Source: Geobacteraceae bacterium
GTDB lineage: Bacteria > Desulfobacterota > Desulfuromonadia > Geobacterales > Pseudopelobacteraceae
Direction of reading: 5' to 3'
Length of the DNA stretch: 64,000 nucleotides
Assembly (NCBI GenBank): GCA_013336525.1
Contig: JAAXTM010000001.1
Span: 124,001 to 188,000, forward strand
Below are positions 87-57,417 of the stretch, in pieces. How positions within the stretch are numbered: position 1 is the first letter of the stretch; each line of letters opens with the position of its first letter. The notes under the pieces were generated by a model. It did no database searches. It was given only the letters and a program-made list of their open reading frames with translations, and was not told the DNA's origin. Both the position numbers and the translations under genes were made by a program.

Positions 87-656
87 TTATCCGGCATATT
101 TGACATCCGATGATTCGAAGCGGGCAATACAATACCGCCGGCGACGTGCCGACTTTTCTTGCTTCCGCTGTTCGAGCAGTGCTGCCAGCTTCCTGTGTCG
201 CTGCATTATCAGCCTGTACCACACCATCATCACTATGATGCCGGTGGCATCAATCGCGAATCCCAGCCATGGGACCCAGAAATAGAGGATGGTGCTCATG
301 ATGACAACAGTGCTTGTCGCTTTATTTATCCGCTTTTGCATGCGCTCCTGCTGATCCATGATGCTATGCACCCCCTCCTGAACCAGATTATCGACCAGAG
401 ATAAATAGTCACATGCAATCGATACAAACGCATCGGCCTCATTGCGACGTCGCTTGTTATCCATCAGCTGTTCCAGCCACGGTAGCCGCGGATGCCAGAT
501 GTTTGCCTTAACAATCAGCGGTTGCCATGATTCGACCGTAATATCCTTCCGCAACCGCTCGCCAGGCGTGATATCGAAGTTGATTATTGCCGTTCTGATA
601 TTATTCAGGGTACAGCAAGCATTGTTGTCTGAGACAAAAGGGTCACTCTTACTCAT
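87..656 (-). CDS. Hypothetical two-TM membrane protein
   Basis: I do not recognise this family. The protein is about 189 residues from the ATG at 656. That start overlaps the stop of the upstream 64-residue ORF by 8 bases (ATGAGTAA), which suggests translational coupling. An in-frame start further up (704) would give 205 residues but overlaps the upstream gene more. The N-terminal two thirds is polar. It is followed by two adjacent hydrophobic stretches (around VVIMSTILYFWVPWLGFAI and TGIIVMMVWYRLIM), then a basic arginine/lysine-rich tail, so it is probably a membrane protein with a cytoplasmic tail. It is the last gene of a small operon at the left edge of the accessory region. Function unknown. 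Confidence 0.5.
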   Translation of the reverse strand: MSKSDPFVSDNNACCTLNNIRTAIINFDITPGERLRKDITVESWQPLIVKANIWHPRLPWLEQLMDNKRRRNEADAFVSIACDYLSLVDNLVQEGVHSIMDQQERMQKRINKATSTVVIMSTILYFWVPWLGFAIDATGIIVMMVWYRLIMQRHRKLAALLEQRKQEKSARRRRYCIARFESSDVKYAG

Positions 657-843
657 GGTTGCTGAATCCGAACTTGCGAGCATGCCGCACTGATTCAGCT
701 GCATAGAGCACTAGAACTGCCGAACCAATAGTCGTAGCTGTAGAGTATTGATGGCCGACGGATGCCATCCAGTGCAGCGGTAACATACAGAAATGAGCTC
801 CCCATCGCAGCAGATCATGATACCTGTCAAGTAGATCAAGCAT
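649..843 (-). CDS. Small hypothetical membrane protein (64 aa)
   Basis: A 64-residue ORF with an unusually good translation signal: a purine-rich GGAAAGGGGG lies 7 bases before the ATG at 843. A consensus-like promoter lies upstream (894-922). The protein is moderately hydrophobic (HFCMLPLHWM and TTIGSAVLVLYAA), consistent with one or two short membrane segments. Its stop overlaps the start of the 189-residue ORF, so the two form an operon. No family recognised. Confidence 0.45.
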   Translation of the reverse strand: MLDLLDRYHDLLRWGAHFCMLPLHWMASVGHQYSTATTIGSAVLVLYAAESVRHARKFGFSNHE

Positions 844-893: not shown

Positions 894-922
894 ATTATAC
901 GCTAAATAGTGTATATAATGAA
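894..922 (-). promoter_or_regulatory. Sigma70-type promoter for the 64-aa/189-aa operon
   Basis: On the minus strand a TTCATT (-35, 917-922), a 17-bp spacer and a perfect TATAAT (-10, 894-899) precede the 64-residue ORF by about 50 bp. It lies downstream of the RHH gene stop, so this operon can be transcribed independently. Confidence 0.5.
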
Positions 923-948: not shown

Positions 949-1275
949 CTAAAACAATGAATCAATTGCGGAGGCATTTACAGAGAGGTAGGTTGCGACT
1001 AGGCGGCGGAGGGCTACAGCTTTCGGGCAGTTTTCACGGGCAGCGACGCTGTCGAGCAGGGCGGCGTCGTCAGGAGTCAGGTAAAGGTTGGCTCGTTCAG
1101 GGCGGGGAATGTCCTCGTCTGCCACAAGCGTGGCACCATGGAGCTTCCGGATCGCCTGCCTGCCGATTGTTGATATGGACAGTCCAGCCTCGCGCAAGCG
1201 CTGCACCTGGTCTGACTGCGGCCTGGTCAGATAAAGAAAAAAGCGGACCTGAGCGGGGTTCGAGGGCGTTTTCAT
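949..1275 (-). CDS. Tandem ribbon-helix-helix DNA-binding protein, putative regulator of the type I R-M operon
   Basis: About 108 residues if started at the ATG at 1275. The sequence reads as two consecutive RHH units: a strand FFLYLT with helices around QSDQVQRLREAG and SISTIGRQAIRKL, then a strand ANLYLT with helices around PDDAALLDSVAARE and KAVALRRLVATYL. Most RHH regulators are single units that dimerise; two in one chain would make a pseudo-dimer. The ATG sits inside the palindrome at 1273-1289 and has no Shine-Dalgarno, so translation may be leaderless. A TTG at 1314 is an alternative start. The same palindrome core lies upstream of hsdM. From this I infer that the protein controls itself and the restriction operon, like a controller protein, though it is not a helix-turn-helix C protein. 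It could also be a stray antitoxin; no toxin is next to it. Confidence 0.6.
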   Translation of the reverse strand: MKTPSNPAQVRFFLYLTRPQSDQVQRLREAGLSISTIGRQAIRKLHGATLVADEDIPRPERANLYLTPDDAALLDSVAARENCPKAVALRRLVATYLSVNASAIDSLF

Positions 1276-1289
1276 ACTATGATAGTATG
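1273..1289. promoter_or_regulatory. Palindromic operator CATACTATGATAGTATG overlapping the RHH start codon
   Basis: A perfect 17-bp odd-centred palindrome whose left three bases are the complement of the ATG of the RHH gene. The 13-bp core TACTATNATAGTA recurs at 8293-8305 and 57214-57230. A TTGACC on the minus strand at 1309-1314 could be a -35 element, placing the palindrome over the -10 region and the transcription start. Confidence 0.6.
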
Positions 1290-1378
1290 TGGGCGGCGGC
1301 GCCAGACAGGTCAATCTTGCAAAGTGCCACAGTCGCGGTCATATATTGACAATAATAATTCATTCGGGTTCTCCCTTC

Positions 1379-4378
1379 TTATCGGCCTGCAGCCGGCCTG
1401 GTGAACGGTTGAACTGGCGGCGGAGCTACGCCTGGTCTGTACGTTGTATCGAAAACCGTATCGGTCAGCCAGCGCTTGAAGCCGGGGTTGTCGCTGAACT
1501 GTTTGAACAGCTCCGTGTGATCCGACAGTAGCTCCAGGATCACCCTGTTAAGTGCTTTGTCGTGCTCCAGTCGCGCGTTCTGCCTGTCAGAGTGCTGTGC
1601 CGCATTCTGGTATGCCGTGTCCTGGGCAACGCGTTGCGGTATCTCCTCGGCGATGACCTTACCGATCTTGTCGCCGTCTTTCCACTCGATATTGCCGAAT
1701 AGATCGTTAAAGGTCTTGATGATGTTCGACAGCTTGTCAATGTCAAGATCGCCGCCGCCACCGCCGCCACCCTGAGGTGCTGGTTCTACCTCGCCGTCGG
1801 CATCGTCCATTCCCATGCTCAGTGTAACCTTTACCTCGGGCCGATAGCTGTCCATGTCGATGGTGTCAAGGACGCCCTTGGACAGATCATCTTCCTTTGG
1901 TGCCGGCAGCTTCGGTATCAGAAAATTCAAGAAGATTGACAGTTTTTCCCAGGCCGGGTAGCCGTAAGTAAGGATAGCGCCGAGGAAGCCGTAACTGCGC
2001 ACAAAAGTCTTGGCTTTGCCCTTAAACTCGACCTGCTGGCTCTCATTCAAGGTTCTCATATAAATTTCTACACAGCTATCCAGGATTGGGTCAAGCTTGT
2101 CGCGATCCGCCCCTGTGATGTACAGCGCCACCAGATCCTCGACCTGCTGCAACGAATAGACCTGGGACCTGTCGAGGTCGCTCTTCAGGTCATGCAGCTT
2201 GTTGGGATCGGTTTCGCCGACCTGCACCGTAGCGCAGTAGTATTCCTGAAAGGCTGCTTTCACTGCCTCGGCATTATCAGCGAAATCGAGTACAAAGGTG
2301 TCGTGCTTCTGCGGGTGGGCACGATTGAGGCGCGACAGGGTCTGGACCGCCAGAACGCCGGCCAGCGGTTTATCGACGTACATTGTGTGCAGCAGCGGTT
2401 CGTCAAAACCGGTAGTGAATTTGTTGGCGACAATAAGAAAACGGTATGGGTCCTGCTTCAGCTTGGCCGGTATATCCTTGCTCGGGAAATCATTCAGGTC
2501 GGCCTCGGTAACCTTCTTGCCTGCGACCTCCTGATCGCCGGAAAAGGCGACGATGGCCTTGAACGGGCTCTTGACCTCACGCAGGTATTCCGTGACCTCG
2601 CGGTAGTAGTCAATGGCCCGCGCGATGCCGCTGCAGACGATCATCGCCCGTGCCTGTCCGCCGATCTTGCGTTTGCCCGCAACCTGCGCGATAAAATGGT
2701 CGACCATAATCTCGGCCTTGCGCCGGATCGCTTTGTCGTGCGACTCGACATAGAGGCGGATCTTTTTCAGCGCCTTGACCTTGTCGAAGTCGGGGTCGTC
2801 GGCCACCGTCTTGGCCACCCGATAAAAGCTGTCGACAGGGGTGTAGTTTTTGATCACATCCAGGATAAAGCCCTCCTGGATGGCCTGCTTGGTAGTGTAA
2901 GTCAATTCGACCGGTGAACGGAAATGGGGCTTGTCGCCCTCAAGGGAGCGTTCGCCGAACAGCTCCAGTGTCTTGTTTTTTGGTGTGGCAGTAAAGGCGA
3001 AGTAGCTGGCGTTCGGCAGCATCTTGCGCGACTCGATCAGCCGGTTTATCGTGTCCTCCACCGACTCTTCGTCATCCTCATCATCGCCGGGTGCCGATGA
3101 CAGGGCCATGTGCATCTTGGCCGTAGTCTTGCCACCCTGGCTTGAGTGAGCCTCATCAATTAGCAGAGCAAAGTTGCGAGAGCCGAGATCACCAAGCTCG
3201 TCCAGGATAAACGGAAACTTCTGCACCGTAGTAACAATGATCTTCTTGCCCTTGTGCAGAAAACCGCGCAACTCTTCGGCGCTATCGGAGTGACCAAAGA
3301 TCGCTGCCACATGGTCGTAGCCCTTGATGGTCCTGGAGATTTGCGTATCAAGTGCACGTCGATCGGTGATGACGACGATAGAGTCGAACTGGGCGATACC
3401 GCTATCGCTGATCTTTTTGAGTTCTACCAGCTGATGTGCCAGCCAGGCGATGGTGTTGCTCTTGCCGCTGCCGGCGGAGTGCTGGATCAGGTAGCGGCGA
3501 CCCACGCCGTCGACGCTGCAGCGGCGCAGCAGGGCCTGTACGGTGCGCAGCTGATGAAAGCGCGGAAATACCTGTTTGCGCTTTTTTTTGCCGCGCTCGT
3601 CATCCTCTTCGACAACCTGGGCGAAGTTTTCGACTAGGATGGCCAGTGATTCCTTGGTCAGCACCTGCTTCCACAGGTAGTCGGTCTTAAGGCCGGCCGG
3701 GTTGGGTGGGTTACCGGCGCCATTGTTCCAGCCCTGGTTGAAAGGCAGAAACCATGACTTCTTACCGGTCAGGTGGGTGCAGAAAGCTACTTCGGTGTCG
3801 TCAACAGCGAAATGCACCATACAGCGTCCCAGCTGGAACAGCAGCTCACGTGAATCTCGATCGGTCTGGTACTGTGTAATGGCGTCGGCCACGGTCTGTT
3901 TGGTCAGGGAGTTTTTTAGCTCGAAGGTTGCCACTGGCAGGCCATTGATGAAAATTGCCATATCCAGGGAGCGTGCAGTTTCATCGTTGCTATAGCGCAG
4001 CTGGCGGGTGACACTGAAGATGTTGCGGGCGAAATTGTCGGCGGCGCCGGCATTGCCGGGCGTCGGCAGAAACTTATACAGGTCGACGTGCACAGGGCCG
4101 TGGCTGACGCCCTTACGCAGTACGTCAACCACACCACGTTTGGCAACCTCACCCTGTAGCCGGTGCAGGAACATGGTGCGCTTCATGCCGTCTTGCTCCA
4201 GCTCCAATGTGGCGGTTACCTCAGGCTGGGTGACCTGCAGGAAGTCCAGCAGCTTCGCCACATCCAGAGCTACGTCGCGGTTATAGTCAGTCGGTAGCCC
4301 TTGAATGTAGCCTGCGGCGATCAGGTCTCGTACGATCAAGGTTTCGAGGCCCTTTTCACTGGTGTCAGTCGTCGCCAT
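1379..4378 (-). CDS. hsdR: Type I restriction enzyme, R (motor/nuclease) subunit
   Basis: About 999 residues, normal for HsdR. It cleaves and translocates DNA in complex with HsdM and HsdS. Visible motifs in order: a PD-(D/E)xK-type nuclease element with FELKN near residue 175, Walker A SAGSGKSNT near 320, a DEAH box (LLIDEAHSS), motif III FTATP, and later helicase motifs including ANKFTTGFDEP. A Gly7 tract from GCC-type repeats (1752-1773) sits in the C-terminal third and may be a linker. I start at the ATG at 4378 because GGAGG lies 6 bases upstream; a longer frame reaches 4477 but lies inside hsdS. The start overlaps the hsdS stop by 14 bases. No disruption is seen, so the enzyme looks functional. 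Confidence 0.95.
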   Translation of the reverse strand: MATTDTSEKGLETLIVRDLIAAGYIQGLPTDYNRDVALDVAKLLDFLQVTQPEVTATLELEQDGMKRTMFLHRLQGEVAKRGVVDVLRKGVSHGPVHVDLYKFLPTPGNAGAADNFARNIFSVTRQLRYSNDETARSLDMAIFINGLPVATFELKNSLTKQTVADAITQYQTDRDSRELLFQLGRCMVHFAVDDTEVAFCTHLTGKKSWFLPFNQGWNNGAGNPPNPAGLKTDYLWKQVLTKESLAILVENFAQVVEEDDERGKKKRKQVFPRFHQLRTVQALLRRCSVDGVGRRYLIQHSAGSGKSNTIAWLAHQLVELKKISDSGIAQFDSIVVITDRRALDTQISRTIKGYDHVAAIFGHSDSAEELRGFLHKGKKIIVTTVQKFPFILDELGDLGSRNFALLIDEAHSSQGGKTTAKMHMALSSAPGDDEDDEESVEDTINRLIESRKMLPNASYFAFTATPKNKTLELFGERSLEGDKPHFRSPVELTYTTKQAIQEGFILDVIKNYTPVDSFYRVAKTVADDPDFDKVKALKKIRLYVESHDKAIRRKAEIMVDHFIAQVAGKRKIGGQARAMIVCSGIARAIDYYREVTEYLREVKSPFKAIVAFSGDQEVAGKKVTEADLNDFPSKDIPAKLKQDPYRFLIVANKFTTGFDEPLLHTMYVDKPLAGVLAVQTLSRLNRAHPQKHDTFVLDFADNAEAVKAAFQEYYCATVQVGETDPNKLHDLKSDLDRSQVYSLQQVEDLVALYITGADRDKLDPILDSCVEIYMRTLNESQQVEFKGKAKTFVRSYGFLGAILTYGYPAWEKLSIFLNFLIPKLPAPKEDDLSKGVLDTIDMDSYRPEVKVTLSMGMDDADGEVEPAPQGGGGGGGDLDIDKLSNIIKTFNDLFGNIEWKDGDKIGKVIAEEIPQRVAQDTAYQNAAQHSDRQNARLEHDKALNRVILELLSDHTELFKQFSDNPGFKRWLTDTVFDTTYRPGVAPPPVQPFTRPAAGR

Positions 4379-5786
4379 CGTCATCCTCCGTTTCGGTATC
4401 CGATTCGTCATCGGCCAGCGCCGCAAGATTAATATCGGCCACCACGTCATCCGGCCCGGGTATCCAGCCGCGTACATCTACCTGACCTGTAACCACATCG
4501 GCAATCAGGCGATCACGATATTCGCGGATCAGCTTGATCTCTTCTTCGGTGCGGTGAATTGCCTCTTCCAGTGGCCTGCACTCTGAGTCGATCCAGCGAC
4601 AAATCAACTCCTGCTCGGCAGAGGGCGGAAGTGGCATCACGGCATTCTTTACATCATGCTTCGACAACGCAAAACGCGTGACACCTGTTGCCAAAACATG
4701 AAACTGCTCGGTTATTCGGGTCGCCCCAAGGGAGCGAAATAGGTACTCACCATGGACCTTGCCAGATACAGGCCGGAGCAGGCCCAGATGATATGCGCAT
4801 ACGACGCCCGACAAATCTGCTGGCACCCAAGCAGGCACGGCAATATCGCTTGGCGTTTCGGAATCCTTTGTGATGATCACATCACCAGCTTTCAGCGTCA
4901 GCCGAAAAATCTCTGCTGATGTGGCAGTGGCGTGCATTAAGTTCATGTCTGCGGTAATAACGTCGTTTTTGTAGACGTCGGTGTAATTACAGAGCCGAAC
5001 CGGGATTTCATGGTCATGAGAGTGCTTATCTACACCACTGAACCGCACCTCTGATATGTGCTTCAAAAGAGCAACATCCCAATGACTCGGGATATTTCCC
5101 AGCCAGTCGATGCCCGAGGGTTTCAATTTGACCGACGCATTGAGGCCGCGCGTGACGGCCTGATCGATGATGCGGAGCTTTTGCTCGGTCAGCAACCCTA
5201 TCAGTTCGCGTTTTGCTTTGATGAAGCGGGCGATATGGGCGTCCTGCGCCCGCAGGTAGACGACAATCTGGTCCTGTTCGGGGCGTGATGGAAGCGGAAT
5301 CGGAAGAGACGCAAATCGATCAGAGTACAACCTCAAGAAACCCGATGTGCCAGTGCCAAGACCCTTTGACTCCGATCTGAATAAGCCCCGCATTGGTGCA
5401 GACCGAAACAGGTGTCCGAGATATTCTGGATTATCGTTACGTAGTGTTCGAAACACGGCATAGTCGGGGCTCACCAGCCCGGACAGAGAACTACGAAAGA
5501 ACATCGCGTTACCGGCCTGCATTCGGTTTAGGACTAGTTCGTTTGGGAATGTGCGCTTATAACCGATCAGGTGTTCTGCACCAATGTGCTTGTTAGATAC
5601 ATCGTTGTGCGGGACCAGTCCACGGTACTGACGCATCGACAACAATATTTCCTCTCCGGTCGTAGAGCGGTCGTCAATCTCACGCAAAAAATTCTTGGCA
5701 CGGAGATATTGCCAAGTCAAAGGTATCTGTGGCACCCAGCGCGACAATGTGAGCTGATAGTTCGGATAGGCTGGTAGTTGCTTCAT
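4365..5786 (-). CDS. hsdS: Type I restriction-modification specificity subunit
   Basis: 473 residues with the two-fold HsdS layout. Each half has a variable target recognition domain followed by a conserved spacer helix. The conserved elements are LPIPLPSRPEQDQIVVYLRA leading into a coiled coil ending LLTEQKLRIIDQAVTRGL, and PLPPSAEQELICRWIDSE leading into IREYRDRLIADVVTGQVDVR. The C-terminus is an acidic Asp/Glu tail. It gives the methylase and nuclease their bipartite DNA target, which cannot be predicted here. The ATG overlaps the hsdM stop by one base (TGATG). Confidence 0.93.
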   Translation of the reverse strand: MKQLPAYPNYQLTLSRWVPQIPLTWQYLRAKNFLREIDDRSTTGEEILLSMRQYRGLVPHNDVSNKHIGAEHLIGYKRTFPNELVLNRMQAGNAMFFRSSLSGLVSPDYAVFRTLRNDNPEYLGHLFRSAPMRGLFRSESKGLGTGTSGFLRLYSDRFASLPIPLPSRPEQDQIVVYLRAQDAHIARFIKAKRELIGLLTEQKLRIIDQAVTRGLNASVKLKPSGIDWLGNIPSHWDVALLKHISEVRFSGVDKHSHDHEIPVRLCNYTDVYKNDVITADMNLMHATATSAEIFRLTLKAGDVIITKDSETPSDIAVPAWVPADLSGVVCAYHLGLLRPVSGKVHGEYLFRSLGATRITEQFHVLATGVTRFALSKHDVKNAVMPLPPSAEQELICRWIDSECRPLEEAIHRTEEEIKLIREYRDRLIADVVTGQVDVRGWIPGPDDVVADINLAALADDESDTETEDDDGDD

Positions 5787-8167
5787 CAGTCCGCACCGAC
5801 GATCATGTGTAGTAACCCCTCGGTCTGCTGCTCCAGCGCCAGAATGTCAGCACGGATCTGATCCAGAGTCCGCAATGGAGCAGGCCGATAGAAATATCGG
5901 GCGAAGGAAATTTCATAGCCGTTCTTGGTGGCATCCGTCGTGATCCAGGCATCGGCCGCATGTGGCAACACCTCACGGCGGAAGAACGCCTCGATGCCAC
6001 CGGCTTCCTTCAGCGGTACCTGTTCGGTATCACGCAGATCGCTGTCCGGTTCATACTCAACAGCAAAGCGTTCCTTGCCAACATTCTCCAGATATGTGCC
6101 GTCAATGCCCGGTTTGAACTCCACGCCTGCCTTCAGCTTGGTACGCTTGGCAATTACCGGCGGCGCAGCTTCATCGCGCCAGCTGACGGCCTTGTATATC
6201 GCCTTCTTCTCTGCAGCGCCGATCTTCTTATTGTGCTGCTTCATTGCAGCATCGAAGCGGGAACGGAATTCGTTATGGTCGTCGAATATGCCGTCGCCCA
6301 GATCCTGCTGCGCCAGTCGGGCCAGCTCGATCAGGGTCTTGTCGCGAAGCCAGGTGAAAGGATCAAGTAGTTTTTTCCGGCGTTTCTCCGGTACTGTCTT
6401 CTTGGCGACCTTATTGTCATCTTCCTCGCCGTCATCGTCGCCATCATCGTCAGTTTCATCCCCTTTGAGCCAGGCCTCGATTTCAGGCCGAATTACTGCA
6501 ATCTGGTCATAGAGTTTGTTGCCCCAGCGGCTGTACATCTCACTGCGCAGGCTTTCATCGCCGGCAGCGAACCGTAAGGATTCGATGGCGCTACGCTTGA
6601 GCTGGCTCTTGAGGCGCAGCGGGCGCTCGACGGTGATCTTCCAGTAGCCGAAGTCGGCATTGTCGAACCACTTTGACTCCACTGCGGCCTTGGCTGCCGT
6701 ATCAACCGCCGGTGGCTGCGACAGGTATTGGTCAAGGATGCGGTTGATATCTGCTCCAGACAGTTGGCAATTCTTCTTGCCGAGGTTGCGGCGCAACGGC
6801 TCAAACCACTGGGTGGCGTCGATAAGCTGTACCTTACCTTGGCGGTGCTTGGCTTTGCGATTGGTAAGGACCCAGATGTAGGTGGCGATGCCGGTGTTGT
6901 AGAAGATGTTGAGAGGCAGCGCGATGATTGCCTCGAGCCAGTCGTTCTCGATCACCCAACGCCGTATGTTGCTCTCACCCTGACCGGCATCGCCGGTGAA
7001 CAGCGCCGAGCCGTTATGTACCAGCGCGATCCGGCTTCCGAGAGGGGTGTCGTGCTTCATTTTCTGAAGCTTGTTGACCAGAAACATCAGTTGCCCGTCA
7101 CTAGAACGGGTGATCAGTTTAAACTCCGCGTCACCACCATGGTTGACAATAAAGCGCGGATCGCTGAAACCGGCTTTACCGCCCATCCGCTCGAGGTCGG
7201 TTTTCCAGCTCTTGCCGTAAGGAGGATTTGAGATCAGAAAGTCGAATTCGCGTGACGGAAACTGGTCGGCCGACAGTGTGGACTTATCGGCGCCGCCGAC
7301 AATGTTCTCGGCCTCATCACCTTCGCCCTTCAACAGCAGGTCAGCTTTACAGATAGCGTAGGTTTCCGGGTTGATCTCCTGGCCAAACAAGTGGATGGAG
7401 ACTTCCTTATCGTGGCTGCTGGCCAGTGCTAGCAGTTCTTCCTCAGCTACGGTAAGCATACCGCCGGTGCCGCACGAGCCGTCGTACAGTGAGTAGGTAC
7501 TTGACTCGATCTGGTCCGCGATGGGCAGAAACAGCAGTTTGGCCATCAACTGGACCACATCACGTGGTGTGAAATGTTCGCCGGCCTCTTCATTATTTTC
7601 TTCGTTAAAGCGACGGATAAGCTCCTCGAACACGGTGCCCATGCCATGATTGTCAAGGGCAGGCATCTTGATGCGGCCTTCGGCATCAAAGACCGGCAGC
7701 GGAGAGAGGTTGACGTCAGGGTTGAGAAAATCGGTGATGAGGTGACCGATAATGTCTGCATCTACCATCGTCTGTATCTGGTCACGGAATTTGAACTTGG
7801 TCAGGATCTCCTGCACGTTAGGCGAAAAACCGTCAAGATAGTCGATGAAGTTGTTGCGCAGACGTTGCCCTTGCCCACTGGCAGTCAGACGCGGCAGCGT
7901 GAACTCTGAGGTGTTGTAGAAAGCCTGCCCTGCCGCCATGCGCAACGCACCATCCTGATCAACCACGCCGTGCAGGTCAAGGAACGTTTTGCGCTCCATC
8001 ACTGCGTTTTTTGTGGATTCAAGTACCGCATCCAGGCGGCGCAGAACGGTGAATGGCAGAATCACATCACGATATTTTCCGCGGACATAAACGTCGCGCA
8101 GTCTGTCATCGGCAATATTCCAGATAAAATCGGCAACCCACTTGAGTTGGCCTTGATCTACAGTCAT
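5786..8167 (-). CDS. hsdM: Type I DNA adenine methyltransferase, M subunit
   Basis: 793 residues, longer than the classic ~520-residue HsdM. Motif I for S-adenosylmethionine is DGSCGTGGML and the N6-adenine catalytic motif IV is NPPYG; an N-terminal HsdM helical domain precedes them. The extra C-terminal ~250 residues include a very acidic run (around DETDDDGDDDGEEDD) and a region typical of the larger M subunits found with ~1000-residue HsdR proteins. It is the first gene of hsdMSR. The long upstream region (8168-8535) carries the TACTATNATAGTA palindrome 126 bp before the start. Only a weak Shine-Dalgarno is seen. Confidence 0.93.
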   Translation of the reverse strand: MTVDQGQLKWVADFIWNIADDRLRDVYVRGKYRDVILPFTVLRRLDAVLESTKNAVMERKTFLDLHGVVDQDGALRMAAGQAFYNTSEFTLPRLTASGQGQRLRNNFIDYLDGFSPNVQEILTKFKFRDQIQTMVDADIIGHLITDFLNPDVNLSPLPVFDAEGRIKMPALDNHGMGTVFEELIRRFNEENNEEAGEHFTPRDVVQLMAKLLFLPIADQIESSTYSLYDGSCGTGGMLTVAEEELLALASSHDKEVSIHLFGQEINPETYAICKADLLLKGEGDEAENIVGGADKSTLSADQFPSREFDFLISNPPYGKSWKTDLERMGGKAGFSDPRFIVNHGGDAEFKLITRSSDGQLMFLVNKLQKMKHDTPLGSRIALVHNGSALFTGDAGQGESNIRRWVIENDWLEAIIALPLNIFYNTGIATYIWVLTNRKAKHRQGKVQLIDATQWFEPLRRNLGKKNCQLSGADINRILDQYLSQPPAVDTAAKAAVESKWFDNADFGYWKITVERPLRLKSQLKRSAIESLRFAAGDESLRSEMYSRWGNKLYDQIAVIRPEIEAWLKGDETDDDGDDDGEEDDNKVAKKTVPEKRRKKLLDPFTWLRDKTLIELARLAQQDLGDGIFDDHNEFRSRFDAAMKQHNKKIGAAEKKAIYKAVSWRDEAAPPVIAKRTKLKAGVEFKPGIDGTYLENVGKERFAVEYEPDSDLRDTEQVPLKEAGGIEAFFRREVLPHAADAWITTDATKNGYEISFARYFYRPAPLRTLDQIRADILALEQQTEGLLHMIVGAD

Positions 8168-8292
8168 TGGTTACTCGTCTCTTTGGTATGAAGTTTGAAT
8201 TAATGAAAACAGCTGATTGTTTCGGCGCAGATTAAGCTAAAAACCGCAAATACACAAGTTTCGCGTTATCGGTGGGGTGGTGATGACCTTCC

Positions 8293-8305
8293 TACTATCA
8301 TAGTA
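8293..8305. promoter_or_regulatory. TACTATNATAGTA palindrome upstream of hsdM
   Basis: Same 13-bp core as in the RHH promoter (1273-1289) and at 57214-57230. It lies about 126 bp before the hsdM start codon on the minus strand. Inferred operator for the tandem RHH protein. Confidence 0.55.
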
Positions 8306-8535: not shown

Positions 8536-9312
8536 ATGGCATACGTCGAAAAGCTGGAAACAGAGCATATACTTGCGGCGATGAAATCGTTCGGATGGGC
8601 GCCCGGTAAGAGGCCGCCAACCTACGTTGACCTGCGGTTGAAATGCAAGGAGCTGTTTGACAACGGTGGAGATGGCAACAGGCTTAAAGAAATGAGGGAA
8701 CAGGCGATTGCCATGGAGAGCGGAGTCTCACTGACCAAAAGTGAGGATGAGCCTACTCCGCACCAGTTGCCGGACGATCTTCAGGGTGAGCTTAGAGCTT
8801 TTGCTCGCGATTTTGGCGAACGTTTGACTCGGTTTGACAGAACCACCGGAGCATATCTTGCTCGGCACTGCGCCGCCGCTGATGCAGGTGCCAGTGCTCG
8901 CATCAATGCAAGCCGCCGCGAAGTTTCAGAGCAGTTGGAAGCCTGTGATGAGGAAATATCGGCAGCTTTGTCAGCGATCCAGGCACGCGACTCGATCATT
9001 GAGAAACTTGAGGCAAAACTGTCTTCGGCGCTTACAAACACTGCACATGCTGAGGGTAGGGCGTCGATCCTTTCTGATCAGGTCGAAGGGCTTAAAGCAA
9101 AAATCCTGGAGCTGGAATTGAAGTTCGGCGCATCTAAAAAAGGAGGTGTGAAGAAGACGGAGACAACAAAACCGTCTGGTGCTGCCCAAGCGCACGTTAA
9201 ACATAAACTTTCGCAAAAGACCAGCGCTACTCCCAGCAAAACTATAGTAAATTCGATCGGCGGCAATGAGGCGGCTCACCAGGATGCTGCTCCTGCTGAA
9301 GGTGGTGAATAA
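8536..9312 (+). CDS. KfrA-like N-terminal DNA-binding / coiled-coil protein
   Basis: 258 residues. The first ~60 residues (around AMKSFGWAPGKRPPTYVDL) resemble the KfrA N-terminal DNA-binding domain. A long alpha-helical coiled coil follows (about 95-205), with heptad-rich stretches such as RREVSEQLEACDEEISAAL and EGLKAKILELELKFG. The C-terminal ~50 residues are a polar Ala/Lys/Thr-rich tail. KfrA proteins are plasmid-borne accessory partition and regulatory proteins; I cannot show that role here. The start has a strong GAGGAGG 5 bases upstream. Its stop overlaps the next start by one base (TAATG), so the two genes are an operon. The setting, between an R-M system and a resolvase, suggests a mobile-element origin. 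Confidence 0.6.
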   Translation: MAYVEKLETEHILAAMKSFGWAPGKRPPTYVDLRLKCKELFDNGGDGNRLKEMREQAIAMESGVSLTKSEDEPTPHQLPDDLQGELRAFARDFGERLTRFDRTTGAYLARHCAAADAGASARINASRREVSEQLEACDEEISAALSAIQARDSIIEKLEAKLSSALTNTAHAEGRASILSDQVEGLKAKILELELKFGASKKGGVKKTETTKPSGAAQAHVKHKLSQKTSATPSKTIVNSIGGNEAAHQDAAPAEGGE

Positions 9313-9735: not shown

Positions 9736-10084
9736 GCCGAACAGGCAGACAGTATCGCTGCCGAACAGGCAGATAGCATCGCTGCCGAACAGGCAGTCAG
9801 TATCGCTGCCGAACAGGCAGTCAGTATCGCTGCCGAACAGGCAGATTGTATCGCTGCCGAACAGGCAGACAGTATCGCTGCCGAACAGGCAGTCAGTATC
9901 GCTGCCGAACAGGCAGTCAGCATCGCTGCCGAACAGGCAGACAGTATCGCTGCCGAACAGGCAGTCAGCATCGCTGCCGAACAGGCAGACAGTATCGCTG
10001 CCGAACAGGCAGACAGTATCGCTGCCGAACAGGCAGATAGCATCGCTGCCGAACAGGCAGTCAGTATCGCTGCCGAACAGGCAG
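9736..10084. repeat. 24-bp tandem repeat array (14 full units plus a partial)
   Basis: Units begin GCCGAACAGGCAG and end ATCGCT; 14 complete copies span 9736-10071 and a 13-bp partial copy ends at 10084. Only unit positions 14, 15, 16 and 18 vary. Each unit boundary contains CTGCC-GAACA-GGCAG, a small hairpin. Because 24 is divisible by 3, several frames stay open. On the plus strand AEQADSIA (9685-10089) and PNRQTVSL (9731-10150) run through; on the minus strand CLFGSDTV (9625-10119) does. In the AEQADSIA frame the C/T changes fall at third positions, which favours that frame weakly. However, it begins with a TTG and has no ribosome binding site, so I list a repeat and not a gene. Confidence 0.85.
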
Positions 10085-11767: not shown

Positions 11768-12175
11768 ATGCGCGAAACTACTTTTTATGACGGATGGGTC
11801 GAAACATTAACGATATCCGTTATAGTATTATCTCTATTTGCGACAATTTTATTGTTCGGTCTATGGTGGCAGTATAGAAACAGAAAAAAAGAGCCCGACA
11901 CCCCCTCTGGCTACACCTTTAAAAGTTACGTTAAGTGGTATTTTGATGGATTTGGCGGCGATGTATTCAAGGTGCTAAAATGGGGCATAACAGTGGTGTT
12001 GGTTATTGTTGCTATTGCCGCTGCAATAATATTTATCCCTTTGGCGTGGGGTGCGATCACAGCGGGTATCGACGCAATATCCGTAAAGGGTATTTTAATT
12101 GTTATAGCAGTTCTACTAACCTTGATAGTGTTGAAGTTGAGGTACCCACGGGCCCAAAAGTGCATGCCAGAATAG
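11768..12175 (+). CDS. Hypothetical membrane protein, 3' end replaced by IS sequence
   Basis: 135 residues with three hydrophobic segments: about 14-38 (ISVIVLSLFATILLFGLWW), 70-92 (GITVVLVIVAIAAAIIFIPL) and 105-122. A strong ribosome binding site GGAGGTGAG precedes the ATG. The last ~11 codons (from about 12142) are read from the antisense of the truncated IS200 transposase, so the original C-terminus is lost or altered. No family recognised. Confidence 0.45.
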   Translation: MRETTFYDGWVETLTISVIVLSLFATILLFGLWWQYRNRKKEPDTPSGYTFKSYVKWYFDGFGGDVFKVLKWGITVVLVIVAIAAAIIFIPLAWGAITAGIDAISVKGILIVIAVLLTLIVLKLRYPRAQKCMPE

Positions 12176-12471
12176 TTTATATTTTGACCAAGGTACATTC
12201 GGGCAACATAGATGGCGCTTTTACCCTTGATGAAACCGATCACCTGTGCAACGGAGTATTTTGGTGGGATCGATATCAATATGTGAATATGATCAGGCTG
12301 AAGATGGCCTTCCAGTATCTTGCACTCTTTCTGCCTCAAAAGGCTGTGTAACAGGTCGCCAAGCTCTTTTCGTATACGGCCAAACAGAACCTTGCGCCTA
12401 CATTTAGGGATCCATACAATATGATACTTGCAATCCCATTTCGTGTGACATAAACTTTGTGCGTCGTCCAT
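12142..12471 (-). pseudogene. tnpA: IS200-type transposase (TnpA), C-terminally truncated
   Basis: Starts MDDAQSLCHTKWDCKYHIVW with AGGAGG 5 bases upstream. It carries the HUH metal-binding element (PDHIHILISI) of Y1 transposases and continues to GMHFWARGY. There the match stops at about 12142 and the sequence runs into the neighbouring membrane-protein gene. The helix with the nucleophilic tyrosine lies beyond this point in the family, so the enzyme must be inactive. Confidence 0.85.
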
Positions 12472-41678: not shown

Positions 41679-43280
41679 TTATCCCAATATCGCCTTCATA
41701 TCAGCCTCAACCGTGGTAATCGGGCCGACATTGAAGTTCTCGACCAGGAAGTTGAGAACGTTCGGCGTGATGAAGGCCGGGAGTGATGGTCCAAGCTTGA
41801 TGTTTTTGATGCCGAGGTGGAACAGGGTCAGGAGGATAACCACCGCCTTCTGCTCGTACCAGGAGAGAATCATCGAGAGCGGCAGATCGTTGACGCCGCA
41901 TTCAAAGGCGCCTGCCAGAGCTACCGCGATCTGGATGGCCGAGTAGGCGTCGTTGCACTGACCGACATCGAGCAGACGCGGGATGCCGCCGATATCTCCG
42001 AAGTCCAGCTTGTTGAAGCGGTATTTGCCGCAGGCCAGAGTCAGGATGACCGTATCCTGCGGGAGCTTCTCGGCAAATTCGGTGTAATAGTTGCGCCCCG
42101 ATTTGGCGCCGTCACAGCCGCCGATCAGGAAGAAATGCTTGATAGCGCCGGATTTGACGGCGGCAATGACTTTGTCGGCGACGCCGAGTACGGCATTGTG
42201 GCCGAAGCCGGTCAGGATTTCCTGGCCCGGGTTGTCCGGCAGGCCCGGGAGCTCAAGAGCTTTGTTGATGACTGCCGAGAAGTCCCAGCCGTCGACATGT
42301 TTGACATCGGGCCAGGCGACCAGTCCCCAGGTGTAGAGGCGGTCTTTGTAACTGTCGGACGGTTTCTGAATGCAGTTGGTGTTGAAGATGATCGCGCCGG
42401 GGAAGTTGACGAATTCTTTCGCCTGATCCTGCCATGCCCCGCCAAAGTTGCCGACCAGATGGGTGTATTTCTTCAGGCCGGGGTATCCGTGTGCCGGGAG
42501 CATTTCGCCGTGGGTGTAGATGTTGATGCCTTTGCCTTCGGTCTGCTTGAGCAGTTCTTCGAGCATTTTCAGGTCGTGGCCGGTGACCAGGATCGCTTTG
42601 CCCGCTTTGGTACCGAGCTGCACCGGCGTCGGTACTGGATGGCCGTAAGCATCGGTATGGGCGGTGTTGAGCAGACCCATGACGGTCAGGTTCTGCTTGC
42701 CGCATTCCATTGAGAGGCCGACATAGTCCATCAGACCAAGGTTGGCATCAGTCGTAGCGGCAAGTGCTTTCTGGAAGAAGGCCATGACTTCATCATCGGT
42801 TTTGCCAAGAATCATGGCGTGATCCATATAGGCTGCCATCCCTTTGAGGCCGTACATGAGGATTTCGATGACGGAGCGGATGTCTTCGTTGACGTGCTGG
42901 GTATTGATGCCGTAGGCCTCACCCTGAGCGGTCATGCCGGCCAGATCATCAGCCGGTTTCCAGTCGGCAACCGGGCCGGACAGCGTAACACCGGCGGCAG
43001 CTTTGGCTTTTTCTTTCAGCTCGTAGCAGCGCTTGATCATGCCGCCGATGCGAGCCGGTTCAAAATCAACGTTGGTAACGGTTGTGAAAAGCGCTTCAAT
43101 GGTGAAGCGGTCGATTTCGGCATTGCGCCCCAGTTTGTCGGCGTAGAGCGCCAGGCTTTTCAGCCCGTACAGCAGGTGATCCTGCAGTATCGCTACCTCG
43201 GGTTTTTTGCCGCATACGCCGGAAATGTTGCAGCCGGTGCCGTTTGCTGCCTGCTCGCATTGGTTACAAAACATACTCAT
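41679..43280 (-). CDS. hcp: Hybrid cluster protein (hydroxylamine/NO reductase)
   Basis: 533 residues. N-terminal cluster cysteines CNQCEQAANGTGCNISGVC (C-x2-C-x8-C-x5-C, the anaerobe class I pattern). Further hybrid-cluster ligands are in GGCDGAKSGRNYYTEFAE, LACGKYRFNKLDFGDIGGIP and GQCNDAYSAIQIAVAL. Known to reduce hydroxylamine or NO and to mediate S-nitrosylation. Ribosome binding site GGGAGGAAG. A near-match TTGATGGTAGTTAA box lies at 43375-43388. Confidence 0.95.
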   Translation of the reverse strand: MSMFCNQCEQAANGTGCNISGVCGKKPEVAILQDHLLYGLKSLALYADKLGRNAEIDRFTIEALFTTVTNVDFEPARIGGMIKRCYELKEKAKAAAGVTLSGPVADWKPADDLAGMTAQGEAYGINTQHVNEDIRSVIEILMYGLKGMAAYMDHAMILGKTDDEVMAFFQKALAATTDANLGLMDYVGLSMECGKQNLTVMGLLNTAHTDAYGHPVPTPVQLGTKAGKAILVTGHDLKMLEELLKQTEGKGINIYTHGEMLPAHGYPGLKKYTHLVGNFGGAWQDQAKEFVNFPGAIIFNTNCIQKPSDSYKDRLYTWGLVAWPDVKHVDGWDFSAVINKALELPGLPDNPGQEILTGFGHNAVLGVADKVIAAVKSGAIKHFFLIGGCDGAKSGRNYYTEFAEKLPQDTVILTLACGKYRFNKLDFGDIGGIPRLLDVGQCNDAYSAIQIAVALAGAFECGVNDLPLSMILSWYEQKAVVILLTLFHLGIKNIKLGPSLPAFITPNVLNFLVENFNVGPITTVEADMKAILG

Positions 43281-43402
43281 TGTTCTTCCTCCCTTTTGAT
43301 GGTTACGATTAAACTCGCAGAAGAGTTTTTTGTTTCTGTTTCAGACAGAGTATACGACCTCAACAAGCAAATAATTGATGGTAGTTAAGTTATTCAATGA
43401 AA

Positions 43403-45019
43403 TCATTTTTTTACTTCATCCTTTTTAACTACTATCATGGCGTCATTCAGAATTTTAACACCTGCTTTGGATGCAGCGATCGAACCGGTCAAACTTTCAC
43501 GGGCAAGAGCCGGATTATGGAACCCGTCGGAATTTTCGGCAGTCCAGTATTCCCAGAGAACATGGGCCTCTTCATGCTTCTCGCGAGCCTGAGCCAATAC
43601 GCTTTCAACGACACCGGCACGTTGGGCTACGGCATAGGTGTCGATCAACTGACCCAGCCAGTATTCGGATTTGCGCATTTTGCCTTTTGTGTAGTTGATG
43701 ATTGATTCTATTTCATAGAGTTTTTTCTCAACCGTACTGTCCGGGTGGCAACCCAGACAGGAAGCCTTGACCGTCATCTTGGGCTTGACCACACCGTGGG
43801 TCGAGAAAACCTTGCCGTCCTTGCCCTTCATCTTGGGCATATGACATTGATGACACTGAACTCCGGCCTTGTCATGAACACTGCCGGCAAAGGTCTCGGC
43901 CTCGGGGTGCTGGAACTTGATCAGGCGGGCGCCGGTAATGGCATGTTTGAAGTCAAAGAAGTCCAACTCTTTGTAGTGTTTCAGTAACTGCAGTGAGTTT
44001 TTGAGCGGGAAGTGGTTGGTACGCATATCATCATACCCGACCTTCTTGCCGTCGCTCGGCTGTGTACCGGCATTACAGTTGTATTCAACGTGGCACTGGG
44101 CGCACATCATGCGCGAATCAGTCTTTTCCATGACGCCAATTTTGCGGAAACCACGGAAATCAATGACTTTCAGATCTGTTTTACCATTTTTGGCGAAAAT
44201 ATTGCCGGCCTTGTCCTTCTCGATTGCCTGGATCAGACCATCGCGTACCAAACGCGGTTGGGTACCGTGCGGGTCATGGCAGTGAATACAGCCAACCGGG
44301 TTGTTTGTCGCTTTGGCAACTTCGTTGACATCGGAAGTACGATCAAACTTACCACCCTTGTCCCCCATGAATTTCCAGGTCAGCACATGGTCGGAGGTTT
44401 TGCACTGGATACAGGTCGGGTTACCGGCCATGGCGGTTTCTTTCAGCTTGAAGTCTTTCCCTTTGTCTTCCAGCACATCCCAGGTTTTACCCATCTTGTC
44501 GATGCTTTTCCAGCCGCCCTTGAATTGGTAGCGTCCGCCCTGAAAACGGTCAACCGCGAACTGATCGGTTACCATGAAGGCGTGCCCACGCGGCTCGGCA
44601 TGTTCAAAGGTAAAGCCGTGGCCAGCCAGCAGTTTGTCCTGCATTGGTGAACGACCTGCAGGAACTCCTTTTTCCTTGCGTGCTCCGCCATCACGATTGA
44701 GGGTGTAGAAACTCTCCATCTGGCTCTTGTGGCATTTGCCGCACAGTGCCTGATCAATAATTGTCACCGGTTTATTTTTTTCCGGATCCTTCATGTGCTC
44801 ATCCATTTTGTCATGGCAGACCGTACAGGCCAGCTTGGCATGCTTCGAGCCCTCCTTTAGCGCCTTGACCTCGTCGTGACACTCATAACATTTGGCGCGC
44901 CCGTCGTTGGTTACTTTAGCAACCGGTTTTGCCTTGGCAGCGGTTGTCATGGCGGGGATTGACAATACTGCGATTGCCCCGATGACGGCCGCAACAAGGG
45001 CCAGATTCTTCTTCAGCAT
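43403..45019 (-). CDS. onr: Octaheme cytochrome c nitrite reductase
   Basis: 538 residues from ATG 45019 (GGAG upstream); signal peptide ends near MTTAAKAKP. Heme motifs in order: CYECH, CTVCH, CGKCH, then the lysine-ligated catalytic CIQCK, then CIHCH, CAQCH, CHQCH, CLGCH. Three N-terminal hemes in front of a five-heme NrfA-like core is the plan of octaheme nitrite reductases (Thioalkalivibrio type). CAQCHVEYNC has Tyr-x-Cys, matching the Tyr-Cys crosslink known in that family. Reduces nitrite to ammonium in the periplasm. Last gene of the nar operon; no NrfH is seen, so its electron donor is unknown. Confidence 0.9.
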   Translation of the reverse strand: MLKKNLALVAAVIGAIAVLSIPAMTTAAKAKPVAKVTNDGRAKCYECHDEVKALKEGSKHAKLACTVCHDKMDEHMKDPEKNKPVTIIDQALCGKCHKSQMESFYTLNRDGGARKEKGVPAGRSPMQDKLLAGHGFTFEHAEPRGHAFMVTDQFAVDRFQGGRYQFKGGWKSIDKMGKTWDVLEDKGKDFKLKETAMAGNPTCIQCKTSDHVLTWKFMGDKGGKFDRTSDVNEVAKATNNPVGCIHCHDPHGTQPRLVRDGLIQAIEKDKAGNIFAKNGKTDLKVIDFRGFRKIGVMEKTDSRMMCAQCHVEYNCNAGTQPSDGKKVGYDDMRTNHFPLKNSLQLLKHYKELDFFDFKHAITGARLIKFQHPEAETFAGSVHDKAGVQCHQCHMPKMKGKDGKVFSTHGVVKPKMTVKASCLGCHPDSTVEKKLYEIESIINYTKGKMRKSEYWLGQLIDTYAVAQRAGVVESVLAQAREKHEEAHVLWEYWTAENSDGFHNPALARESLTGSIAASKAGVKILNDAMIVVKKDEVKK

Positions 45020-45090
45020 GGTTTTTCTCCTTTCCGTGGTGGACATTTACCGACTTAACGTACTCCATCTCCTTCCAAAACTTTGAGCCG

Positions 45091-45429
45091 TTACTTCAAA
45101 GCCTTTTCCTTCTGAAATCGTGCTGTAATATCTCTAATTACCGCACCTGTGTCAAGTACAGCTCCACTTTCATCACGAACGATAACCATGCTGAACTCCA
45201 GGGAGAGCCGGGAGCTGTCCTTTCGCAGGCCTGGCGCCGAAAGGAGTTCCGTTTCATAACGGGTCACTCCGCTTGCCATAACCTTGTGGTAACCCTCACA
45301 ATGCCTGCCGCGCTGGTTTTAGGGAATAATCAGGTCGAGGATGAGTCCTTCATGGTCGGCAAACATGATTGCATCGCTGTTTTTCTTCACTATTTGTTCA
45401 CTTAACCAGGCAAACGACAGATCATTCAT
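45091..45429 (-). pseudogene. PAS domain protein, internally deleted
   Basis: Starts MNDLSFAWLSEQIVKKNSDA then IMFADHEGLILDLIIP-stop. It continues in the same frame as NQRGRHCEGYHKVMASGVTR to DITARFQKEKALK. Against the intact PAS protein (37425-37859), about 25 residues including the FWNSGAEQMFGYT region are missing and a stop follows IIP. Located between narK and onr. Confidence 0.8.
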
Positions 45430-45466
45430 CAGATATTCTCCTTGCGACAAAGCAGCTCAAATCATA

Positions 45467-46843
45467 TCAACACGGCATCTCGGCGTTCTTACGGGAATAG
45501 TACCACCATGTCATGATAATGCAACTGGCGTAAAAAATTATAAAACCATAAAGAGCGGCATCCGGGCCGCCGGTCGCGGCGATCGAGGTGCCGAAACTTT
45601 TGGGGATGAAGAAACCGCCATAAGCACCGAGGGCTCCGGCAAAGCCGAGTGCGGCGGCTGCTTCCTTGGCGGCATCGACATTGATCTGCGCATCGCTGCG
45701 CCCTGCTGCGGCCCGCTGATGCTCGGTCATATAGATGACCGGGATCATGCGGAAGGTAGAGGCGTTGCCGACACCGGTCAGCGTGAACAGCAATAAAAAC
45801 ATGATCAGAAATCCCTGAAAGCTTCCTCCCTGGCCTGCATGGGGAATGAAATTCAACACGCCGACGACTGCCAGCACCATGGCTATGAAGGTCCAGAAGG
45901 TCACGCGGGCTCCTCCCAGTTTGTCGGATATCCAGCCGCCGATGGGGCGCGCGATGGCTCCGACAAAGGGTCCCAAAAAGGCGTAGGCGGTAGGGTCAAT
46001 GCCGGGAAACAGTTTTTTGGTGAGGAGGGCAAAACCGGCCGAAAAACCGATGAACGAGCCGAAGGTACCGAGGTAGAGCCAGCACATGAGCCAGTTATGC
46101 TTCCGCTTGAAGATCACTGCCTGATCGGCAAATGATGCTTTGGCAGAGGCTATATCGTTCATGCCGAACCATGCGGCAACCGTTGCGACAATAATAAACG
46201 GCACCCAAACGAAACCGGCATTCTGCAGCCACATCTGCTTGGTAACTCCCGCCTTTACCCATACCTGCGGCTCGCCACCAAGAGCGCCGAAGACTCCCAT
46301 CGTAATGACGAGCGGCACGAGAAACTGCATCACCGAAACACCCAGATTGCCGAGGCCGGCATTCAGGCCGAGTGCGGTACCCTTCTGCGCCTTGGGGTAG
46401 AAGAAGCTGATGTTCGACATGCTCGACGAAAAATTGCCGCCGCCGAATCCGCAGAGCAGGGCGAGTATGAGCATGATCGTGTAGCTGGTAGCCGGATCCT
46501 GTACGGCAAAGCCGATGCCGATTGCCGGAATCAGCAGCGATGCGGTAGAGAGCGCCGTCCATTTACGACCGCCGAAAATCGGCACCATGAACGAATAGAA
46601 GATGCGAAGCGTCGCACCGGACAGCGCTGGAAGAGCTGCCAGCCAGAAGAGCTGATTCGGTGTAAACTTGAAGCCGATATCGGGAAGCTTGACGACTACC
46701 ATCGACCAGACCATCCAGACTGAGAAGGCGAGCAGCAGCGCCGGGATCGATATCCAGAGGTTACGGGCGGCGATTGCCTTGCCCTTCTTCTCCCAAAACT
46801 CCTTGTCCTCCGGATTCCACTCAGTTATTACGCGAGATGACAT
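45467..46843 (-). CDS. narK: Nitrate/nitrite transporter (MFS, NarK family)
   Basis: 458 residues, 12 membrane helices. NarK signatures: an early FSVWMVWSMVVVKLP, GFGGGNFSSSMSNISFFYP and the related second nitrate-signature region near GFAGALGAYGGFFIPK. Imports nitrate or exchanges it for nitrite. Follows a second NarK gene in the operon. Confidence 0.9.
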   Translation of the reverse strand: MSSRVITEWNPEDKEFWEKKGKAIAARNLWISIPALLLAFSVWMVWSMVVVKLPDIGFKFTPNQLFWLAALPALSGATLRIFYSFMVPIFGGRKWTALSTASLLIPAIGIGFAVQDPATSYTIMLILALLCGFGGGNFSSSMSNISFFYPKAQKGTALGLNAGLGNLGVSVMQFLVPLVITMGVFGALGGEPQVWVKAGVTKQMWLQNAGFVWVPFIIVATVAAWFGMNDIASAKASFADQAVIFKRKHNWLMCWLYLGTFGSFIGFSAGFALLTKKLFPGIDPTAYAFLGPFVGAIARPIGGWISDKLGGARVTFWTFIAMVLAVVGVLNFIPHAGQGGSFQGFLIMFLLLFTLTGVGNASTFRMIPVIYMTEHQRAAAGRSDAQINVDAAKEAAAALGFAGALGAYGGFFIPKSFGTSIAATGGPDAALYGFIIFYASCIIMTWWYYSRKNAEMPC

Positions 46844-46866
46844 TGGTTGTCTCCTTGTTGCAGTAT

Positions 46867-48375: not shown

Positions 48376-48417
48376 TAACAAGTCCTTTCCAAAGCCTGAT
48401 TCAATCTCAATAACGCG

Positions 48418-49083: not shown

Positions 49084-49618
49084 GAGTGCACCTCCTTACA
49101 ATCTTCAGCACAGAGCAGCCAGGACGCTTCAACCAGTACCTTCCAGTGGGATTCCTGCCGGGTGTCAAAGGAGTCGTGGAACCGCTCTACCCCCGGCAAC
49201 ACACATTCGGTGATGAATGACTGTCGTGCTCCGCTTTCCGCTTGACGCGCCAGATGGGCCAGAAAGCCGAGCAGCACCGAAAGATGGTCGGGAAGTTCTA
49301 CGCCGGTCGGGGTGTAGCCGCAGCGCTCGAATTCCTGTTTCAACATGATCATGTACCCCCCCTTTTTCTGGTTGTCACCGAAGAGGTGATGACCCAGATA
49401 GGGGGCGGTGGCCGGATTGAAATCGAAGCTGGCGACGTACTCCTCCTGCAGTGATGAGAGGGGAGAATCGGCGGCAAATTCGGCAAAAGAGGCGATGGAG
49501 CTGTCGAGCCGCTGCTGGTTCAGAAAGGTGCTGACAACAACATAATCAGCTTGCAGCTGCTCCTTGTTCTCCGGATAGTCGAGCAGCCTGGCGAGGGCTT
49601 CGTAACTGGCGGCGATCG

Positions 49619-49622: not shown

Positions 49623-51070
<1,448 letters not shown>

Positions 51071-56660: not shown

Positions 56661-57417
56661 TAACTTACTTGTTTAATTATTTTTTTCAGGTGTTTTACTT
56701 GGACTAATTAGGCCACCCATCTTTCCTGCCTCGTCACGTATGAAAGGGCTATTCCATTCGCCAGCGGTAAGACTTGGGCCTCTATCGTCTAATGGCTGGA
56801 TAACGATCTAGAAACCGATAGAGGCGCCTCTATGTTTAATTTCCGAACTACTCGAGCAACAAGATGTAAGTCTGTAAATCCATACGAACATAATTGTACA
56901 CTAAAGATGCCGAGTTGTCAATATAACTAGCTGTAATTATTGACATATTTGTTGTATTTGTGTTTTAGAAATGATACTATCGCTTCACCATATTGGATTA
57001 GCCTATCAAAACTAGATCTGGACGGGGAGCAGTGACAGATGTGGTGTACCCCCCTCAACACTTGAGTGCATTGCTGAAAAAATATCTGGTGAAATCTCAG
57101 TGAAAACTCTTACAACTTTTGCTCGACACAGATTTCAAGTAAATACGATGGCTTGATCGTTGCGATATATAACAAAGAGGTGGATACAGAACTGGACCGG
57201 TGGCGTTTACCGCTATACTATGATAGTATACAACACGTATTGGAACCCCAAATCTGCTTTAGATTTAGCGGGTAGGGGACCATAGTCCATAGTTAGTCCA
57301 TAGTGGTTATTTATGCAGGTCAACTTATTGATATCTATCAGTATCGTGTAATTGATCTGGAATCTTACATAAAATAACAGCGGATTTGTTAAATTTGTGT
57401 TTGACCGCAAATCTCTT
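56661..57417. other. Long non-coding stretch between the att-like scar and purN
   Basis: No supported gene. It contains a GCCTCTATCG...CGATAGAGGC hairpin (about 56790-56830) and a TTGACA-containing AT-rich promoter-like patch near 56940. The RHH-type palindrome lies at 57214-57230, and TCCATAGT direct repeats at ~57285-57305. Confidence 0.4.
57214..57230. promoter_or_regulatory. Third TACTATNATAGTA palindrome (TATACTATGATAGTATA)
   Basis: Perfect 17-bp palindrome with the same 13-bp core as 1273-1289 and 8293-8305, about 49 kb away and with no gene close on either side. Confidence 0.5.

Follow-up and report, generated by a model that had tools for sequence, protein, structure and literature searches.

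A predicted tandem ribbon-helix-helix protein as a likely autoregulator of a Geobacterales-type integrative island carrying type I restriction-modification genes

A gene encoding a 108-amino-acid protein with two predicted ribbon-helix-helix (RHH) units, together with exact copies of a short palindrome, was identified in a 64-kb stretch of DNA from a Geobacteraceae bacterium. This stretch, analysed at its full length of 64,000 nucleotides, is called the window, and positions are those of the window unless a contig or locus is named. We consider it rather likely that the RHH protein is an autoregulatory regulator of a Geobacterales-type island, and that it represses itself and the next gene through palindromic sites. 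The initial annotation had interpreted the palindrome as a link between the RHH protein and the type I restriction-modification (R-M) genes that lie beside it. The gene and its candidate sites are as follows.

949..1275 (stop included), minus strand: tandem-RHH regulator gene, 108 amino acids, an open reading frame (ORF) read from the internal ATG at 1275 and assigned with AlphaFold2 and Pfam.
1273..1289, no strand: 17-bp palindrome, proposed self-operator, overlapping the RHH start codon; the same offset is kept in genomes G075 and G032.
8293..8305, no strand: second palindrome copy, between the divergent hsdM and a 258-amino-acid ORF.
57214..57230, no strand: 17-bp palindrome, third copy, close to the right island end.
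896..915, no strand: TATACA-N8-TGTATA palindrome with one mismatch, proposed second operator, after the RHH stop codon and before a 64-amino-acid ORF.

The 13-bp core of the palindrome, TACTATNATAGTA, occurs exactly at 1275-1287, 8293-8305 and 57216-57228, in agreement with the three places given by the initial annotation. The perfect palindrome extends to 17 bp at 1273-1289 and 57214-57230 and is 13 bp long at 8293-8305. No further exact match is present in the whole assembly of 3,504,294 bases, and the reversed control gives 0. The initial annotation had named a site common throughout the genome as counting against its proposal, and this outcome was not observed. With up to two mismatches, the window holds 4 matches against 0.86 expected, a number reached in 2 of 100 shuffles. 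With up to one mismatch, 5 sites were found in the whole assembly and 5 for the reversed control, so the exact class of sites alone stands out. In the 141 order genomes, exact 13-mers number 21, spread over 15 genomes, against 16 for the reversed control. This is close to what chance gives; genomes G000, G075 and G015 have three apiece. On these whole-assembly and 141-genome counts, the palindrome was rejected as a genome-wide site.

All three exact sites are confined to a 60.4-kb island (C11:120978-181364) that makes up 1.7% of the assembly. This is an integrative genomic island with an integrase, paired ends and an empty site in relatives. A tyrosine integrase gene (Phage_integrase) lies to the left of the window, beside the left copy of a 23-bp repeat. 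The right-end elements are as follows.

57280..57302, plus strand: 23-bp repeat, right-end copy; its sole other copy in the genome is at C11:121136-121158, beside the integrase gene (search allowing one mismatch to the pattern).
57354..57364, plus strand: TGATCTGGAAT, right-end copy of a proposed recombination core that recurs on the left side, where hpnH has its 3' end.

In G009 and G018, hpnH stands directly beside purN without the island (73 bp apart in G009; 65 bp in G018, from the alignments). The purN locus was found in 36 of 39 genomes, and the loci of 29 other genomes, including these two, were compared; hpnH was not found in the flanks of the remaining 27. A 104-bp stretch at the right end of the island is 82% identical to a stretch of contig C82 of G032, which ends at the same core. 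No tRNA gene was found at the island ends tested or in loci L026 and L072. The island encodes an HTH_17 excisionase-like protein, and its content includes narG (NCBIfam TIGR01580), narH, narI, a prismane protein and a cytochrome c552 (41679-54857). An origin of the third site by chance in ordinary chromosome was rejected because this site lies inside the island. Just outside the island end, beside purN, there is a 25-nt inverted repeat with 92% complementarity (57418-57468).

The AlphaFold2 model of the RHH protein, built from a two-sequence alignment, contains two strand-helix-helix units (E10-16 H18-29 H34-45 E60-66 H68-81 H85-99) with a mean pLDDT (predicted local distance difference test score) of 86.7 and a pTM (predicted template modelling score) of 0.79. 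The Pfam family RHH_1 matches the second unit alone (E 0.00038). The model and this match agree with the tandem-RHH assignment of the initial annotation. On the model, the protein is a member of the RHH superfamily, a predicted single-chain tandem RHH protein like TraY. The best Foldseek matches are chains of the F relaxosome (probability 1.00, TM 0.66, E 0.0078, 14% identity), followed by DndE, and no Foldseek match reaches E 0.001. From their length and fold, the matched relaxosome chains are presumably TraY. A profile search of the PDB gave weak or chance rows, and TraY was not returned up to E 1. A search with the RHH profile retrieved 14 copies in 12 of the 141 order genomes. The two closest orthologs, in G032 and G075, share 63% and 51% identity with the window protein. 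No relatives beyond its own genome were found in a 395-genome sample of the phylum, and none were confirmed in plasmids or viral contigs, where five viral candidate stretches were considered. The single relative found in a set of genome contigs seems to be the G075 copy on contig C33. Searches of the open-access literature returned nothing on this RHH family.

The 17-bp palindrome covers the ATG of the RHH gene, and the same offset is conserved in the two closest orthologs, neither of which has hsdMSR. The palindrome is exact in G075 and reads TACTATGATAGCA in G032, with one outer base changed. This kept placement over the start codon is supported by the ortholog sequences as what would be expected of an autoregulatory operator. 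A second start motif, of the TACTGT type, is present in five copies (G020, two in G032, G128 and G103). Past the stop codon, the same five have a related palindrome that follows, in varying form, the pattern TACAGTA-N2-TACTGTA. The start motif recurs after the stop, which indicates that the start and stop palindromes change together. Genome G032 contains both types, one RHH copy having a TACTAT-type start motif and two copies a TACTGT-type motif. The TACTGT-type start motif was at first described as a direct repeat; this description was dropped, as the motif is one base away from the palindrome after the stop. Counting both motif types, a candidate operator on the gene's own promoter was recognised in 8 of the 14 copies.

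Further 13-mers were noted around these genes. G075 has two additional copies, one 554 bp before the RHH gene and one on another contig; the second G075 copy (L017 11704-11716) is contained in a 23-bp perfect palindrome overlapping an ATG whose frame stops after 22 codons. The second 13-mer of G032 (L016 14127-14139) lies in the middle of an extended, perfect inverted repeat with GGCACCTGGGCGC arms between convergent ORFs, which looks like a terminator or a recombination hairpin. In the window, the gap between hsdR and the RHH gene holds a 28-codon leader ORF on the minus strand (1277-1363), whose TAG was placed inside the palindrome by eye.

A TATAAT-like hexamer (at least 5 of 6 bases) precedes the RHH start by 6-20 bases in 10 of the 14 copies, with eight of them at -12 to -14, in contrast to a background of 196 of 3369 ATGs (5.8%) in the same 14 loci. 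The better hexamer of the window and of the G032a copy is at -9, a distance too short for a normal start; another, with 4 of 6 matches, is at -14. The spacing suggests that the RHH transcripts may be leaderless, with the palindrome lying on the -10 region.

A second conserved element follows the gene. TATACA-N8-TGTATA, with up to one mismatch, was found 16-80 bp past the RHH stop codon in all 14 copies. Beyond these, the 198,476 bases of the 14 loci hold two matches at the same tolerance, of which one lies in the promoter of the G128 RHH gene. Position 7 of this palindrome varies with residue 11 of the protein, which sits in the first predicted RHH strand. Position 7 is G on both arms in all nine copies with Glu, and C on both arms in all three copies with Arg. 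In the two copies with Ala, it is T on both arms, or C and T. The covariation holds in all 14 copies and over three residue classes. In these comparisons and in those of promoters and start motifs, the G058 gene was read from one codon too late (ACG for GTG), which does not affect column 11. Of all alignment columns, 11 alone has a residue common to every copy of the G class and absent from the other copies. Six columns separate G from not-G, and four of these six fall in the two predicted strands (hypergeometric 0.002). With base 7 changing jointly on the two arms and residue 11 present once per chain, the pattern points to one chain per half-site; two RHH chains would probably sit on one 20-bp palindrome, one on each half.

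These observations can be combined in a proposed mechanism. Each RHH chain, holding two units, would act as a ready-made dimer. It would bind two palindromes, the one on its own promoter and start codon and the one that closely follows its stop codon and falls within the promoter region of the small gene downstream. Repression of both genes would constitute negative autoregulation. Control by this protein would probably extend, through the two further start-type palindromes, to the intergenic region between hsdM and the 258-amino-acid ORF and to the right-hand island end. The R-M genes would be cargo that acquired an operator or arrived beside one.

Several points weigh against this mechanism. 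Binding and repression by the RHH protein are what we infer from sequence. Six of the 14 RHH copies have no recognised start palindrome, and scans for consensus sigma-70 promoters gave none overlapping any of the three window sites. In the window, the start palindrome (CTA-N3-TAG core) is similar to the stop palindrome (CTA-N2-TAG core) and not the same, so that the binding of both by one protein can be proposed conditionally. The tree needs just two changes of residue class (Glu label), a number as low as that in 11 of 500 shuffles, and the independent covariation events are therefore few. G015 has three 13-mers although its RHH protein belongs to the Glu class, and two of these lie within ORFs. 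Finally, the palindrome is absent from the G032 end that resembles the right end of the window island.

The genes around the RHH gene are as follows.

87..704, minus strand: orf205, a conserved neighbour with a hydrophobic stretch (hydropathy); homologs stand beside the RHH gene in G032, G075 and G080.
649..843, minus strand: 64-amino-acid ORF of a small protein family, with 8 likely relatives aligned.
1379..4477, minus strand: hsdR, type I R-M, putative cargo, from the ORF and domain matches; the true start may be past the listed ATG.
4365..5786, minus strand: hsdS, from the ORF and domain matches.
5786..8167, minus strand: hsdM, from the ORF and a PADLOC MTase_I match (7e-250).
8536..9312, plus strand: 258-amino-acid ORF, a possible second target, divergent from hsdM and coiled-coil-like by eye.

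The next small ORF after the RHH gene encodes 41-76 amino acids in 12 of the 14 copies, and nine of these align as one family. The exceptions are G032a, with a 147-amino-acid ORF, and G103, with no ORF of this kind. The 64-amino-acid ORF of the window has no Pfam or NCBIfam match. Its hydropathy maximum of 1.17 is below the membrane threshold of 1.6, which five of the nine family members exceed, and the label "small membrane protein" was withdrawn for it. The 258-amino-acid ORF has no Pfam match above the cut-off. Neighbours were counted with the window proteins as queries, and the counts are lower bounds, as some loci lie on short contigs. Homologs of orf205 follow the RHH gene in at least 4 of the 14 copies (G000, G032a, G075 and G080), and homologs of orf243 in at least 8 (these four and G007, G015, G058 and G132). 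The cargo beside the RHH gene differs between genomes. Directly upstream of the RHH gene, where the window has hsdMSR, G032 has a gene for a 1225-amino-acid helicase-PLD protein (L016 4931-8608) that resembles the Mokosh proteins MkoA and MkoC (PADLOC 1.6e-50 and 8.5e-47). A type II or orphan DNA methyltransferase was found in G007 and candidate defence genes in G076, and an HU/IHF-type gene adjoins the RHH gene in G075 and G076. In the same G032 genome, a gene resembling comM is seemingly split between L016 18050-18997 and L072 744-1385, suggesting an insertion. Two other features of the window are an ORF with an IS200-type transposase domain (Pfam Y1_Tnp; 11926-12471) and a 24-bp tandem repeat of 14.5 copies with 92% matches, open in several frames (9736-10084).

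In the proposal of the initial annotation, the RHH protein would be a dedicated controller repressing both hsdMSR and its own gene; it would set the timing of a type I enzyme in the way that C proteins do for those of type II. The site on the hsdM side is identical to the self-site in the 13-bp core. It precedes the hsdM ATG by 126 bp and the divergent 258-amino-acid ORF by 231 bp. The gene order hsdM-hsdS-hsdR-RHH agrees with this proposal as well. In G076, an hsdR gene (approximately 31% identical) and a 53-residue hsdS match lie 6-9 kb upstream of the RHH gene; an early view of this hsdR as irrelevant was checked and softened, and this locus is the sole result that speaks for a looser association with R-M genes. 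G076 has no hsdM match and no 13-mer in its genome. Against a dedicated controller, a complete hsdMSR set adjoins one of the 14 RHH copies, that of the window, and the other copies adjoin different cargo. hsdM matches with E up to 1e-150 are present in 11 genomes of the order. The initial annotation had asked whether relatives of the hsdMSR operon carry the same RHH gene and site; none of the 10 other hsdM relatives (50-73% identical) has the 13-mer (up to one mismatch) or an RHH gene in flanks of approximately 1.5 kb. Among those 10 genomes, G058 alone has an RHH gene, on the same contig and approximately 138 kb from hsdM. The third site, moreover, is at the island end, far from hsdMSR, and no consensus sigma-70 promoter overlaps the hsdM-side site. 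The linkage of the RHH gene to R-M genes across genomes thus amounts to one complete and one partial case (G076). As a general claim, the R-M controller was rejected, and for the window itself we regard it as quite unlikely. From the original interpretation, the RHH fold and the kept site at the gene's own start remain.

It is also unlikely, in our assessment, that the RHH protein is mainly architectural, serving excision or transfer by marking the ends of the island or an origin, as TraY does, with autoregulation being secondary. The nearest solved folds are F relaxosome chains, and F TraY, according to the available part of the source, is a single chain with two RHH halves that binds oriT (PMC12117103). 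One palindrome is 52 bp from the right-end repeat, a site where no recognised gene adjoins, and the HU/IHF-type genes of G075 and G076 would fit such a role. Set against it, no relaxase was named in Pfam and PADLOC scans of selected island proteins, which did not cover every ORF; there is no palindrome copy at the left end, and the similar G032 end does not keep the palindrome. Binding by another protein, such as the HTH_17 excisionase-like protein encoded in the island or a host factor, with a coincidental overlap of the RHH start, would be in line with the difference between the window start and stop palindromes. We consider it very unlikely, as the start motif tracks the RHH class and not the host genome, which is seen in the mixture of motif types within G032. 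An effect at the RNA level, in which a palindrome hairpin over the RHH start codon limits translation, appears highly improbable. The 17-bp palindrome does cover the ATG and the leader ORF ends inside it, but no start codon lies at either of the two remaining copies, and G032 keeps the place and not the full palindrome. An autoregulatory repressor of the island remains the reading that we favour.

The RHH protein was compared with known regulators. The available text on F TraY describes a monomer with the whole RHH dimer fold in one polypeptide (PMC12117103). The window protein is like TraY in having two RHH units in one chain, in being encoded on a mobile element and in its nearest fold, that of the presumed TraY chains. 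It is unlike TraY in its sequence (14% identity), and no relaxase or transfer operon was recognised among the island proteins scanned. It was not assigned to TraY proper, as no sequence match was obtained and its neighbours are an integrase, an HTH_17 protein and hsdMSR.

CopG, Arc and omega-type proteins are short RHH proteins that repress their own promoter and use a two-stranded sheet to recognise palindromes or repeats. They are homodimers of one-unit chains, whereas in the present family the units are fused. The C proteins of type II R-M systems are helix-turn-helix proteins that act on C-boxes, and their autoregulation times restriction. The functional idea of timing is shared with them, whereas the fold differs and R-M linkage was found for one RHH copy here.

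RptR (RMS-proximal transcriptional regulator), described in Escherichia coli in 2025, is a small repressor of its own gene and of a defence island with a type I R-M system (PMC12255303). RptR resembles the present case in its palindromic sites overlapping its own promoter, in not being a classical C protein and in its position near a type I R-M system (PMC12255303). It differs in being all-alpha, in using 6-bp TAGCTA repeats and in its link to type I R-M in 54 of 117 genomes (PMC12255303), whereas the window protein has an RHH fold and no such link. With its RHH fold and a different palindrome, the window protein does not belong with RptR. This precedent means that a regulator of a type I R-M system other than a classical C protein is already known, with a different fold and site.

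We further propose, tentatively and as a possibility that we hold to be doubtful, that the tandem-RHH gene works together with its small neighbour as a self-regulated core module, so far undescribed, of mobile islands in this order. Defence cargo would be exchanged beside this module and wired in by gaining an operator. As a natural switch of specificity, residue 11 (Glu, Arg or Ala) would set base 7 (G, C, or C/T) of the operator. Should the favoured reading be right, the plausible "controller of a type I enzyme" would be corrected to an island-wide regulator, and the 14 copies would be natural pairs of protein and operator on which a change of RHH specificity by one residue and one base pair is directly testable. 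It would also illustrate one route by which defence cargo may fall under the control of a mobile element.

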